Shown piece by piece: positions 5,736 through 41,073 of a DNA stretch of 64,000 bases. This stretch comes from Blastocatellia bacterium. Lineage in GTDB: Bacteria; Acidobacteriota; Blastocatellia; HR10; J050. The stretch spans positions 1 to 64,000 of the forward strand of contig JALSQX010000033.1 of the NCBI GenBank assembly GCA_026985075.1. Direction: 5' to 3'. Numbering within the stretch: position 1 is the stretch's first letter; every line of letters begins with the position of its first letter. A program made the position numbers and the translations under genes. The notes below the pieces were generated by a model. That model did no database searches, was not told where the DNA came from, and saw only the letters and a list, made by a program, of their open reading frames with translations.

Positions 5736-7364
5736 ATGGAAAAAATCAGGGCCGACGAAATCAGCAATTTGATTCGGCAACAAATCGAGAATTTCGGCGC
5801 TTCGGTGGCCGTCGAAGAAGTGGGGAGCGTCATCAAGGTAGGCGATGGCATCGCCGAGATTTATGGGCTGGAGAAAGTGATGGCCGGCGAACTCCTGGCC
5901 CTCCCCCACGACGTCGCCGGGTTAGCGCTCAACCTGGAAGAAGACAAAGTGGGCGCCGTGCTGTTTGGCGATTATCACCTCATCAAGGAAGGCGATGAGG
6001 TGAAGCGTACGCGGCGCATCATGCAGGTGCCCGTGGGCGAAGCGCTCATCGGCCGCGTCGTCGATGCCCTCGGTCGCCCCATTGATGGTCGTGGCCCCAT
6101 CGTCACCGAGACTTACGGTCACGTCGAGCGGCTGGCGCCGGGCGTGGTGGATCGCCGCCCGGTTCACGAACCCCTGCAGACCGGGTTGAAGGCCATCGAT
6201 TCGATGATCCCCATCGGTCGCGGGCAACGCGAACTGATCATCGGCGACCGTCAGACGGGGAAGACGGCCATCGCCGTCGATACGATCATCAACCAGAAGG
6301 GCAAGGACGTGATCTGCATTTACGTGGCCATCGGCCAGAAGAAGTCCACCGTCGCCCAGGTCGTCAAGACGCTGGAGGATCATGACGCCATGTCCTACTC
6401 GATCGTCGTCTCGGCGACGGCCTCCGAACCGGCAGCCATGCAGTATCTGGCTCCCTACGCCGGATGCGCGATGGGCGAGTACTTCCGCGATCGCGGCCAA
6501 CACGCCCTGGTCATCTACGATGACCTCTCCAAACATGCTGCCGCGTATCGCGAGATTTCGTTACTTTTGCGCCGACCGCCGGGTCGAGAAGCTTACCCCG
6601 GCGACGTGTTCTACCTCCACTCGCGATTACTGGAGCGGGCGGCCAAATTCAACGAAGAGAATGGGGGCGGCTCGCTCACCGCTCTGCCCATCATCGAGAC
6701 GCAGCTCGGGGATGTGTCGGCCTATATCCCCACCAACGTCATCTCCATCACCGATGGGCAGATCTACCTGGAGACCGATCTTTTCCATAGCGGCATTCGC
6801 CCGGCGATCAATGTGGGCATCTCGGTCTCCCGCGTCGGTGGGGCGGCTCAGATCAAAGCGATGAAGCAGGTGGCCGGGCGCCTTCGGCTGGAACTGGCCC
6901 AGTATCGAGAACTGGCCGCTTTCGCCCAGTTCGGATCCGATTTGGATAAGGTCACTCAGGCGCAACTGAACCGCGGTCGCCGATTGACCGAACTCCTCAA
7001 TCAACCGCAATATCAACCCATGGACGTGGAAAAGCAAGTGCTGGTCATCTGGGCGGGCACCAACGGCTATCTCGACGATTTGCCCGTCGAGGATGTGAAA
7101 CCCTTCGAGCAGGGTCTCCTCCGATTCGTCGAAAACAGCCGGGGGAGTCTGCTGGAGAAGATCGCCACCCGGAAAGCCATTGATGAGGAGATCGAGGCCG
7201 AATTGAAAGACGCGGTGAGCGAATTCAAGGAACGCTTCCTCGCCGAGCGGAGCGAGCACGCCGAACTCGCTGCTGAAACTCAAGACCGATGGGCCGATGA
7301 TGGAGGAGCGGTAGTCGGTGCTGGCGCGCCCACCGGCGAAGCGACCGGCCCGACGTCTTCATAA
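5736..7364 (+). CDS. atpA: ATP synthase F1 subunit alpha
   Basis: The 542-residue protein is a clear F1 alpha subunit: N-terminal beta-barrel domain, the P-loop GDRQTGKT at residues 170-177, conserved [18 protein letters not shown] and the signature [17 protein letters not shown]. Alpha carries non-catalytic nucleotide sites and pairs with beta. The ATG at 5736 follows GAGGAG; the open frame extends upstream through atpH but that part is out-of-frame shadow. The C-terminus has about 30 extra residues rich in Gly, Ala and Thr compared with the usual length near 505-515. It lies between atpH and atpG in the normal order. Confidence 0.97.
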
Positions 7365-35879: not shown

Positions 35880-35981
35880 CACGAAGAGGGAAATTGGGCA
35901 TCGAATGCGTATGGATATGCCTCACGATCTGTCATGGTATCCAGACGGCTTCTGCCGAATGAAGGCAAGAGGTACAGAGGT

Positions 35982-36563
35982 ATGAGACGGACACTTTCTG
36001 CCACCGTCGTCCCGCTCGCCGTTCTCCTGGGATGTTCATCGTCGGCCCCGCTCCATCAGGAGAAGGGCTCCCACCAGATCGATTCTCCCTCCCTCCCATC
36101 ACATGAGGCCACCTACCAGGATCAGATCGAGGAGGACGCCAAACCTCTCCCTCCACCCGTTCACTCACCACCCGATGCGAGAGCCCGGCTTCAAAAGCTG
36201 CGCGTCGATGCCAGGGATGGGATTGCCCTATCCGACCATTTCCCTGATGACATTCCTCTCTATCCGGGCAGTCGGGTTATCGCCAGTGGGAGGGAGAAAG
36301 GGCGCTACTTGGTCAATCTGCAAACTGAAGAGCATACTGATCACGTATGGGCTTTCTATCAGCGAGAACTCCCTCAGCGGGGCTGGGTGATGACCCCTCG
36401 AGAGGTTCCTGGCCTTCTCATCGAAGCTCATCGAGGGAATCGAACATGTATGATGACCATTATGACCAACCCTGAAGGAGAAAGCACGATCATCAGCATC
36501 AGCGTCACGCCGAAGGAGGAAAGATCACCCGATGGGGAAAAGAACACCGAAGTCGATCAGTGA
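35982..36563 (+). CDS. Predicted lipoprotein, function unknown
   Basis: The 193-residue product starts MRRTLSATVVPLAVLLGC, a lipoprotein signal with lipobox LLGC and lipidated Cys18. After a Pro/Ser-rich linker comes a compact domain with DHFPDDIPLYPGSRV and FYQRELPQRGW, a pattern seen in lipoproteins of other diderm bacteria where the YPG and FY..ELP..GW elements recur; the role is unknown. The start at 35982 is chosen because it begins the signal peptide; the open frame to 35934 would precede it with a polar stretch. It is followed by a secreted multi-domain protein after 36 nt. Confidence 0.7.
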   Translation: MRRTLSATVVPLAVLLGCSSSAPLHQEKGSHQIDSPSLPSHEATYQDQIEEDAKPLPPPVHSPPDARARLQKLRVDARDGIALSDHFPDDIPLYPGSRVIASGREKGRYLVNLQTEEHTDHVWAFYQRELPQRGWVMTPREVPGLLIEAHRGNRTCMMTIMTNPEGESTIISISVTPKEERSPDGEKNTEVDQ

Positions 36564-36599: not shown

Positions 36600-38498
36600 A
36601 TGAAGCAGTGGCGTTCGGGGATCGGCTGTCTTATCGTTATCGGACTCTCGTTGATCGTGGGGGCACGGGGCGAGCCTCCGCGCGGTGAGTCCCACTGGAC
36701 AGAATCCACTCGCCAGGCAAACCCCATTCGCGTCATCTCGCCCAATGGTGGAGAACGCATCATTGCGGGCTCCGTCTTTACGATCACGTGGGAGATCACC
36801 GAAAATCTTCCCATCGCCTGGCAACAGATTTTGCTCTCTACCGACGGGGGCGAATCGTTCAGCCCTATCACGCCACCAGCGTTGGGTGCTTCGGTGCGAT
36901 CCTACGACTGGTCGGTCCCTGCCAACCTGGAGACCAAGCGTGGGCGCATTCGGATTCTGGCCCCTACCCCATTTGCGATCATCAATGACGAGAGCGATGG
37001 CGATTTCACTATCTTCATCCCCAACGTTCCTTCCCGGCAAGAGAATATTACGCTTGGGGGCGTTCGGAGGCAGAATCGATTCACCATTGAAGGAGATGAG
37101 CACCGCGTGTCGGGGGAACTCGCTGGCTCGCTTGACGTGCGCTTTTCAACCGGCGATGATCCGACTCAACTCTCGGTGGAATTGACGGCTCTATCATGGC
37201 ACGGCGCATCGGTTACTGTGAAGGGGCACTCGACGGGTCGCCTACTGCTGGCCAAAGAGCACACGACCTTCGCCGGTGGACGGTACGACCTGGAAACCGG
37301 AGAGTTCCGCATTCCACTGAGTATACAGCTCACCTTCAGCGCGCTCACCGATCAAGGAGAGGGGTGGGTCATCGATCAGTCAGACGTTCGACTCACTCCG
37401 CGTCCGGTCATCTTCTCGGCGATCCTCACCGGCCGGCGAAACCCGCGGCTCAAAACGGCCAGCGGAACGCTGGAGGGCGTCATCGAGCCGGATGCCCCCT
37501 TCCTCGGTGGGATGAGTTTCACTGCCAACTGGTCCGGCAAGATCACCGAAGGAGATTCCTCATCGCCCCTGGTGTTCTGTTCGGACTTCTGTGTCGACGT
37601 GAAGGTCATTGCCGACAATGCTGCGGGAGATGGGGCCGTCATTGGAGGTGATGATGTGGAACGCCTGCTCATGAGGGTCAATGACATCTGGGCGCAGTGC
37701 GGTATCCGCTTTGCTCTTGAGGAGGCGGATGCTGATCCTCCTCGTCAACGACTCACATTCATTCCGGCAACCGCAGAGGTGATCGATGAGGGAGGGAGAT
37801 CGCTGACCGATGGAGATTTGCGCCGAATAACCGATCGAGGGACGAGCCTCACCGACGAAGAACGGGCATTGATGAGCCTCTCGGCCAACGATGACTGCTT
37901 GGACATCTATCTGGTGGAGCATCTGGTCACCCCCGAAGGGGAACCGTCATCCCACAACGCCCTCACCATTGGAGGTGGACTCCAGAGGGCAGCAATCATC
38001 ATGGCTGTTTCAGGAGCGACGGTCGATGTCCTGGCCAAACGCCTGGCTCATCAGCTCGGCCATGCCCTGGGATTAACTCACGATGCCCTGCCTGCGGAAA
38101 ACCTCATGGCTGCTGGGCCCGCATATGGGATCGCGCTCAACACGAGCCAGTGCATTACGGCGAGCAGTCTCAATGCACTGGCCGAGCGGCTTCCCTGTGG
38201 AGACCGAACGTTCCAACCGGAGGGCGTGGATGTCATGATCACCGGTCTTGATCCCGATGTGGTGGTTCGCGGTCAATCGACGACGATTTCGATCACCGGC
38301 CGGGGATTGGCCGGGGCCGAAGCCATTCAATTTCCGCCTCGGAGTGGTCTCCGAGCCGAGATCCTCCACAGCACTGATCATCAAATCGAGGCCCACCTGA
38401 GCGCGACTCTTGACGCTCCGACGGGCCGCATCCGATTCTCGGTCAGAACACCGCACGGCGTCGCTCGAAGCGGCGTCATCCGCCTGCTCGTCAGGTGA
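36600..38498 (+). CDS. Secreted metzincin-like protein with Glu-to-Gln active-site change
   Basis: The 632-residue protein has a signal peptide (cut near ARG-EPP), an N-terminal beta-sandwich domain (VISPNGGERI...FTITWEI, residues about 42-140) of a type common in secreted proteins, a middle beta-rich part, a matrixin-like domain and a C-terminal IPT/TIG-like domain (about 540-632). In the third, HQLGHALGLTH (484-494) has the three zinc-binding His and Gly of HExxHxxGxxH, followed by a Met-turn-like NLM at 501-503, but Gln485 replaces the catalytic Glu (codon CAG at 38052). The enzyme may be inactive or use another base. GGGGAG precedes the ATG. Confidence 0.72.
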   Translation: MKQWRSGIGCLIVIGLSLIVGARGEPPRGESHWTESTRQANPIRVISPNGGERIIAGSVFTITWEITENLPIAWQQILLSTDGGESFSPITPPALGASVRSYDWSVPANLETKRGRIRILAPTPFAIINDESDGDFTIFIPNVPSRQENITLGGVRRQNRFTIEGDEHRVSGELAGSLDVRFSTGDDPTQLSVELTALSWHGASVTVKGHSTGRLLLAKEHTTFAGGRYDLETGEFRIPLSIQLTFSALTDQGEGWVIDQSDVRLTPRPVIFSAILTGRRNPRLKTASGTLEGVIEPDAPFLGGMSFTANWSGKITEGDSSSPLVFCSDFCVDVKVIADNAAGDGAVIGGDDVERLLMRVNDIWAQCGIRFALEEADADPPRQRLTFIPATAEVIDEGGRSLTDGDLRRITDRGTSLTDEERALMSLSANDDCLDIYLVEHLVTPEGEPSSHNALTIGGGLQRAAIIMAVSGATVDVLAKRLAHQLGHALGLTHDALPAENLMAAGPAYGIALNTSQCITASSLNALAERLPCGDRTFQPEGVDVMITGLDPDVVVRGQSTTISITGRGLAGAEAIQFPPRSGLRAEILHSTDHQIEAHLSATLDAPTGRIRFSVRTPHGVARSGVIRLLVR

Positions 38499-38647: not shown

Positions 38648-39208
38648 ATGAAATCGAGAAAGGCATTGTCTCTCCTGGCATTTGTCGTCTCGGCCATGGT
38701 CCTGCTGATCATTCCCACTACTCAAGCTCAGGCGCCCGTTCCCGCTCCTAACGATCGCTGTGCCAATCCACAAGATGTGGCCGTCCCTATTGGCACGCCG
38801 CGAAGTTCGGCTCGTCAATGCTTCTTCTTCGATACGAGCGCGGCCACGGCGGGACCAATTGGAGAGGACGTGGTTCGGGATCTTGGTGACACCAATGATG
38901 TATGGTTCCGCATCATGCCTCCGTGTGCTCCCATGAACGTCTTCGTAGCGGCCACTGCCAGCAGCTACCCAACGGAGATCACCGTTACAACTGTGGGAGG
39001 AGGCTTTCCCTTTTTCGTCTGCGATACCGATCTTGACGGCACGGGGGAGAGCTTCTTCGACGGCGACTTCGTCCTGCTCGGCGGGTCCGTCGTCCAGCAC
39101 ACCATCGATGCCACGCTCGCCGGAAGGGACTTCTATTATCTGGTGACTGATGCCGCTCAGGTTACGGGTGGTCTCTTGAGAGTCTGCTTCACCACGGTTT
39201 GCCTGTAA
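38648..39208 (+). CDS. Secreted protein of unknown function, 186 residues
   Basis: The signal peptide (MKSRKALSLLAFVVSAM...) ends near TQA-QAP. The mature part begins NDRCANPQDVAVPIG, similar to the N-terminal ND-C-A pattern of short beta-sandwich repeats in secreted proteins of diverse bacteria, followed by TNDVWFRI and a C-terminal FTTVC. Six Cys in the mature part suggest disulfides. The family is not recognised with certainty. The gene has one of the best promoter and ribosome-site sets in the window, suggesting strong expression. Confidence 0.65.
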   Translation: MKSRKALSLLAFVVSAMVLLIIPTTQAQAPVPAPNDRCANPQDVAVPIGTPRSSARQCFFFDTSAATAGPIGEDVVRDLGDTNDVWFRIMPPCAPMNVFVAATASSYPTEITVTTVGGGFPFFVCDTDLDGTGESFFDGDFVLLGGSVVQHTIDATLAGRDFYYLVTDAAQVTGGLLRVCFTTVCL

Positions 39209-39258
39209 CGAGCGAGGGGGCTCGTCATCAGTCCTTTCCTGAGAGCCATCCCTGGGGA

Positions 39259-41073
39259 ATGATGTCTATTGCTTCTTTGACTGAGACGGCGCTCCCTGTT
39301 GTCCTCGCCTTGAGTCTGCTTTGTGGATCACTGCAGACGGGGAAGGAGGAGGGGTGTATTCCAGCCATCCAGAGCGGAGCCGCGGTCGATGAGAAGGCGG
39401 CTCCATCGCCCTCAACGGCAAACAGCGCGTTGGTCAGCTCTATTATCGACCGGGCGAGAGAAACGCTGACATATGTCAGCTCGCTCATCCCGCGCATTCC
39501 CGAATCCCAATCTCGCATAATCGCCTATACGGCGCTGGCCGAGGCGATCTGGCCTTGCGATCACCAACGAGGCCGCGCAGCCTTCCGTTCCGCGTGGGAG
39601 ACGTTGAACGCATTTCCGGTTCGTTCCCCCTCCCAAGATAAGAACACAAACCGCGACCGACGGGAGAGGGGACAATGGCAGCGACGAATGCGAGAGCGGC
39701 TTCTCCAACGGATTGCTCAGCTCGATCCGGAATTCGCTCACACATTGGCTGAGGAGTCAGCCGATGCGTCCTCCGTCCTGACAACGTCTTCGCCGCCACC
39801 GGGCGAGGAGGCCCGATTCATTTTCGCGCGGGCGTTCGAGCTGCTGGACGCCGATCCCTCTCAGGCAGCCCGGCTGGCTGAGTCCACGCTGACTGAAGGG
39901 ATCTCGCCCTGGCTCGCGCCCTTTCTCATCGAGCTGCGCGCTCAGGCTCCCATGCTCGCCGATCGACTGTTCGACCAGGCGTTGAACGCGATCCTGGCCA
40001 GGAACCAACAGTTGTCTGTCTTAACCCTTCATGCCCTGGGCGCCTACATCCTTCAAGCCCCTGATGGTGGGAATCCGATGCTCGCCCGACGTTTTCTGAC
40101 GCTCATCGCTGCGGCACTGGAGGCACAATCGGACCCTGGCCTCCCGATCGGCGATCGCCTTTCTTATGCCGAGCAGTCCTATTTGGTCCAACTGTATCTC
40201 CCCCTCTTCCAGCGATACACACCAGACCTCGTCCCTCTAATGGAGAGAGTGCTCACCCATCTCTCAGCGCTTCAGACCGCCCATCGAGGAGCATCACCCT
40301 CTGCATCGCCGCAGAATGGAAACGGTGGAAGGCCGCTCAATTCAACTCAACAGCCGAGCGTGACAGGAAACGAAGTGGGTGGGTTGAAGAGGTTGGGAGT
40401 AGCTGGTGGAAGTGATGCGGAGGGGTCGAATGTCGCCGAGCCCTCGCCAGAACGGGCCATCTTGAAATTGCCCGACGAGAAGCTCCGCCAACGTCTCCTG
40501 GACGCCTTGCGATACCGACAGGCGCAACAGGCGATCGAACACAAGGAGTTCGAACAGGCCGAACGACTCATCCAGCGCATGCGCAGCCCTAGAAAGCGAT
40601 TTGAGAGTTTGACCAGACTCGGCATGGCGCTGATGCACCACAAGCAGAGAGCGCACGCCCTCCAGGCCTTTGATCGCGCCTATGATGTCCTCGCCGCTGT
40701 TGAGGATCGATTGGAGAGGGCCACCTTGGCTCTGGGCCTGGCTCGCCTGGCGGTGACGACCGATTGCACTCGCGCGTTCCACTATGCCCAGGCGGCGGTA
40801 TTACTGCTCAACCAATCCCAACAGATCAAGAGGCCGAATCACAAAACCGGATGGAGGCATCGTTGGCGGCGACAGCAACAACTCCACGGGCAACTGACGG
40901 CGACGTTCCGCCCTCTCGGGCGGGCACATTTCGACCAGGCGCTCTTTCTGGCTACGCAACTCCACAATACCACGCAGCGCATTCTCGCCGAGATCGCCGT
41001 GTGTCAAGCTGCGCTCGAACACTGTCGAAGGACCAGCCAACCCCCTTCCCACACCTCAAACGACCAACCCTGA
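39259..41073 (+). CDS. Exported alpha-helical repeat protein, function unknown
   Basis: About 604 residues with an N-terminal hydrophobic export segment (ETALPVVLALSLLCGSL) and mostly helical composition: many pairs of helices of the TPR/HEAT type are suggested by ARALARLA- and EFEQAERLIQRM-like stretches, but no clean repeat consensus is seen. A low-complexity Ser/Pro/Gly region lies near residues 335-400. The C-terminal half is rich in Gln and Ala. The start at 39259 (ATGATG after GGGGA) is preferred; the frame extends to a TTG at 39199. It converges with the flippase gene. Confidence 0.6.
   Translation: MMSIASLTETALPVVLALSLLCGSLQTGKEEGCIPAIQSGAAVDEKAAPSPSTANSALVSSIIDRARETLTYVSSLIPRIPESQSRIIAYTALAEAIWPCDHQRGRAAFRSAWETLNAFPVRSPSQDKNTNRDRRERGQWQRRMRERLLQRIAQLDPEFAHTLAEESADASSVLTTSSPPPGEEARFIFARAFELLDADPSQAARLAESTLTEGISPWLAPFLIELRAQAPMLADRLFDQALNAILARNQQLSVLTLHALGAYILQAPDGGNPMLARRFLTLIAAALEAQSDPGLPIGDRLSYAEQSYLVQLYLPLFQRYTPDLVPLMERVLTHLSALQTAHRGASPSASPQNGNGGRPLNSTQQPSVTGNEVGGLKRLGVAGGSDAEGSNVAEPSPERAILKLPDEKLRQRLLDALRYRQAQQAIEHKEFEQAERLIQRMRSPRKRFESLTRLGMALMHHKQRAHALQAFDRAYDVLAAVEDRLERATLALGLARLAVTTDCTRAFHYAQAAVLLLNQSQQIKRPNHKTGWRHRWRRQQQLHGQLTATFRPLGRAHFDQALFLATQLHNTTQRILAEIAVCQAALEHCRRTSQPPSHTSNDQP

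Follow-up and report, generated by a model that had tools for sequence, protein, structure and literature searches.

Can a bacterial protein whose zinc-site motif lacks the catalytic glutamate be a metzincin by descent, and what might it have been kept for? The question is raised by a gene on contig 33 of a 5.2 Mb Blastocatellia assembly (G000), in a 64 000-nucleotide stretch of DNA that we refer to as the window. Inactive zincins, above all those with a Glu-to-Gln change, are a known kind of protein, and the window protein falls within it. In section 6 of PMC3650047, Gln is given as the most frequent replacement of the HExxH glutamate, HQxxH is recorded in mammalian ADAMs, and the roles of inactive zincins are called poorly understood; inactive metallopeptidase homologues have also been reviewed (PMC11266112). 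A literature search on inactive bacterial metzincins and zinc metalloproteases showed, among the papers listed, no bacterial pseudo-metzincin of the family described below. The locus appears to be a clear bacterial example of a metzincin that has lost its catalytic residue, with the multidomain protein as a whole and the genes around it still kept.

Motif and domain layout of the window protein

The gene (36600–38498, + strand) encodes 632 aa and has a full-length orthologue in another genus (G002; 48% identity over 603 columns). Re-reading of the sequence confirmed the reading frame, zinc-site motif and Met-turn reported in a first-pass annotation. The degenerate motif HQLGHALGLTH spans residues 484–494 (38049–38081, +), with Gln485 (CAG at 38052–38054) at the position of the general-base Glu. 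All three zinc His are kept, as are Gly491 and the Met-turn; Met503 (ATG at 38106–38108, +) aligned with the Met of the other family rows in two alignments, as is characteristic of the metzincin clan. With the catalytic Glu absent, the protein does not show the HExxHxxGxxH/D signature of an active peptidase.

A putative Sec signal peptide, judged by eye from a hydrophobic run in the translation, occupies about residues 1–24 (36600–36671, +). It is followed by an Ig-like N-terminal domain (residues 41–142; 36720–37025, +), which is 51% identical to its G002 counterpart and resembles Kre9/KNH, with Pfam E-values of 0.02 in the window protein and 5.9e-4 in the orthologue, both below the cut-off. 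Such Kre9/KNH-like Ig domains often occur in repeated form elsewhere in proteins of this class, and G000 itself carries many of them in a 2219-aa open frame (G000:C33:217641-220721, − strand). Next comes the beta domain common to the metzincin family (residues 143–318; 37026–37553, +), recognized by hhalign to the beta domain of that family (E 5.5e-6, 85.7%). Its structural matches, obtained with a low-confidence model, were small beta-barrels (hoefavidin, Z 9.3). The metzincin domain (residues 325–540; 37572–38219, +; 47% identical to G002) leads into a C-terminal domain (residues 541–632; 38220–38495, +; 52.7% identical to G002) that had been called IPT/TIG-like. Matches of the right kind were found (NCBIfam NF058597, E 0.008; Pfam PF09099, E 0.074), but both were sub-threshold and no match exceeded a curated cut-off, and we retain the name as putative.

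Relationship to metzincins

When the metzincin domains of the window protein and its orthologue were compared with six family members by hhalign, they aligned with E 2e-14 (98.3%) up to a point just past the motif; five of the six keep HExxHxxGxxH. A search with the family profile returned ADAM 33 (E 1.2e-4) and snake-venom metalloproteinases (E 3.8e-4), with the similarity lying around the zinc site. The profile alignment to intact members, together with the ADAM and venom metalloproteinase matches, indicates that HQLGHALGLTH is no chance motif match. These comparisons argue that the window domain is a metzincin by descent, as had been supposed.

Structure prediction agreed with this for the core of an intact family member from Bipolaricaulota, L078 (pLDDT 62.2). 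Its best match among solved folds was the venom metalloproteinase TM-1 (Z 12.7, rmsd 3.4, 165 aligned), and 49 of the best 50 matches were, by title, metzincin-family metalloproteases or complexes, the title of 6o38 being uninformative. We take the families named in these matches to be metzincins, and ADAM22, which was among them (Z 11.5), to be inactive. Foldseek placed ADAMTS4 first (E 6.9e-6). AF2 modelled the full-length window protein poorly (pLDDT 39.9), and the match of its residues 329–529 to atrolysin C (Z 5.9, rmsd 4.7, 129 aligned), coming from that model, proves nothing alone. Comparison with a viral fold library put general metalloproteases near the top and gave nothing more specific; a scan of viral contigs yielded one short metzincin-like ORF, judged unrelated by eye.

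The first-pass annotation had suggested matrixins for comparison. The modelled core is indeed metzincin-like, but its nearest folds are adamalysins, ADAMTS and pappalysins, not matrixins. Besides the Kre9/KNH and PF09099 matches given above, the Pfam scan of the window protein returned Reprolysin (PF01421, M12B; E 0.012), with 16.1 bits where 20.8 are required, and matrixin (PF00413, M10; E 0.14), with 12.5 bits where 24 are required, all sub-threshold, and membership of the matrixins was rejected. Among solved structures, the family core is most like the catalytic domains of adamalysins/reprolysins (M12B) and ADAMTS proteins, represented by TM-1 and ADAMTS4; the window protein itself stays below the reprolysin cut-off and lacks the catalytic Glu. 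With inactive ADAMs and other substituted zincins it shares the replaced general base and, presumably, the metzincin fold. It differs from inactive ADAMs in being bacterial and apparently soluble and in carrying Ig-like, beta and IPT-like domains, and only the region around its zinc site resembles ADAMs in sequence.

Our analysis points to an unnamed two-domain family consisting of a beta domain and a metzincin. None of five members scanned against Pfam and NCBIfam passed any cut-off. Profile searches at E ≤ 0.01 matched 23 of 396 genomes of the phylum and 13 of 162 of the class, many of the hits being remote metzincins, and a profile search of genome contigs gave 12 loci, including some in Acetothermia, Bipolaricaulota, Caldisericota and Saprospiraceae. 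G000 itself has an intact paralogue, L042 (HELGHAMGLCH), which is available for comparison with its presumably inactive relative. L042 and the HELGHxxGLCH proteins of Acetothermia/Bipolaricaulota, Caldisericota and Saprospiraceae have a beta domain followed by a metzincin, like the window protein, but they keep the Glu, have a longer, cysteine-containing loop leading from the third His to the Met-turn, and showed no N-terminal Ig-like domain in the reading frames inspected.

Orthologue, gene neighbourhood and losses of the glutamate

Three relatives of G000 are referred to below: G001 (same genus), G002 (same family, other genus) and G003 (same order, other family). With the whole protein as query, 33 of 58 genomes, G000 included, gave matches, nearly all of those listed being to the N-terminal Ig-like domain only; besides G000, only G002 had a full-length orthologue. 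Residues 320–632 matched 9 of the 162 class genomes at E ≤ 0.01, over the whole length again only in G000 and G002. Searching the wider genome contigs with the window protein alone found nothing useful. In G001 (94% complete, 480 contigs) residues 320–632 had no match, and for this reason the gene would be dispensable, unless it was lost or missed there.

The motif of the G002 orthologue is HHIGHALGLTQ (LAHHIGHALGLTQ), with His for the general base and Gln for the third zinc His. Loss of the general base, as first proposed, was therefore seen in both full-length orthologues, and absence of the catalytic residue across orthologues is the pattern by which a pseudoprotease is recognized. Judging by the two motifs, the lineage of the window genome and G002 has abandoned the catalytic site. 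Gln485, however, is not fixed among homologues. Since CAG (window) and CAC (G002) are one step apart, Gln may be the older state of the pair. Homologues with Glu, which had been named as a sign of recent mutation or sequence error, do exist; such an origin is nevertheless unlikely because the orthologue also lacks Glu, and we rejected a sequencing error or one-off mutation as a simple account. Downstream of the G002 gene, its 3′ end is partly duplicated: an exact direct repeat, 95 nt long within the stretch searched, occupies L100:5486-5580 and 6206-6300 (G002, C34) at a spacing of 720 bp.

All four domains are 47–53% identical between the two genera, at 33% identity of codon third positions, a dN of 0.49 and saturated dS. 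From this one orthologue pair, the whole protein appears to be under constraint and the catalytic residues do not.

The gene lies second in a cluster that had been described as four exported proteins. It is preceded by a putative lipoprotein (35934–36563, +; lipobox-like LLGC by eye) and followed by a small exported protein (38648–39208, +) and a TPR-like exported protein (39199–41073, +; TPR matches below the cut-off), export of all four being putative and read by eye from the N-termini. The cluster is present as described and is conserved in G002 in the same order, with identities of 38%, 48%, 40% and 40%; the pseudo-metzincin is the best conserved. The small exported protein was found in two of the 162 class genomes, namely G000 and G002, the pair that has the full-length pseudo-metzincin. 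More distant paralogues of the TPR-like protein occur in G000 and other genomes, and one remote paralogue was all that G001 showed of it; the cassette lipoprotein had no match in G001. A PHROGs search with the neighbouring genes was uninformative.

How often has the Glu been lost? We tabulated 61 ORFs and set aside three without the motif and 17 that repeated another row. Among the remaining 41 the general-base residue was Glu in 36, Gln in three, Leu in one and His in one; this count covers ORFs in which an HxxxH-like pattern is still recognizable and would overlook any that have lost the first two His, and four of the five rows without Glu belong to the search profile behind it. L044 of G003 reads HLLGHILSLCH, with Leu at this position and the three His kept. 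The same genome has a 5′-truncated metzincin copy (L036:933-1436, − strand, C313) with HQLGHILSLCH and stop codons upstream, probably pseudogenic. Trees built with and without the motif columns favoured two separate losses, one shared by the window protein and its G002 orthologue and the other in G003, although the second tree omitted L050 and L088 and long branches are in play. A single origin of the four losses (window, G002, L044 and L036) appeared in 2–3% of bootstrap trees, but the AU test did not reject it (p 0.09). The loss in G003 is thus probably independent.

Possible roles and further metzincin-like proteins

We consider it probable that the protein is an exported metzincin without catalytic activity, which serves for binding or as a scaffold within an envelope cassette specific to the lineage. 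The ancestor would have been a two-domain protease with a beta domain and an adamalysin-like metzincin carrying HELGHxxGLCH, to which the Ig-like N-terminal and IPT-like C-terminal domains would have been added in one acidobacterial family. Released from selection, the active site would then have changed, Glu giving way to Gln in the window and to His in G002, the sister genus, which also lost the third zinc His. The fold would have persisted and would most likely be used for binding or as a scaffold, together with the lipoprotein, the small exported protein and the TPR protein.

The locus might instead be drifting towards a pseudogene after loss of the protease function, with no present role. 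The different substitutions in the two genera, the missing match in G001, the truncated relative L036 and the partly duplicated 3′ end next to the G002 gene would all suit such decay. Both full-length frames are nevertheless open over more than 630 codons, every domain is 47–53% identical at saturated synonymous sites, and none of the other cassette genes is as well conserved, which makes decay rather unlikely.

Two further accounts start from what the window copy retains. The Gln protein might still hydrolyse weakly or in an altered way, another residue or metal-bound water replacing Glu, since neither the three zinc His nor Gly491 nor the Met-turn has changed in this copy; by virtue of its three His it may have kept some zinc binding or weak activity. 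Replacement of the general-base Glu costs zincins orders of magnitude in activity, and the orthologue has lost the third ligand as well, so we regard hydrolysis as improbable. The first-pass annotation had itself proposed a binding module that still binds zinc; such a module, an adhesin or an inhibitor, might depend on the bound metal for its function without catalysing anything. The same three His, kept also in the degenerate L044, are in keeping with this, but the tridentate site is not conserved because the same-cassette orthologue has Gln as third ligand, and a zinc-dependent role is hardly probable. Of the claim that zinc binding is left intact, what stands is at most that it could persist in the window copy; across the cassette it would not be conserved. 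It is very doubtful that the protein is secreted to antagonize the active paralogue L042 or metzincins of competitors, or to act as their decoy partner, with the lipoprotein and TPR cassette as its anchor; if true, this would parallel in bacteria what inactive ADAMs do, and would have arisen more than once in a single acidobacterial order.

Gln also replaces Glu (LAHQLGHVLGLSH) in L052 (G471:C77:2438-2788, − strand), a further metzincin-like protein from an acidobacterium; the motif lies towards the end of this protein, which is long and only remotely related to the window protein. In two further members of the beta-plus-metzincin family, L050 (G392) and L088 (G094), an intact metzincin domain stands behind a domain that we presume, from its motif, to be DUF4157-like. 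DUF4157 is known from contractile-injection cargo.
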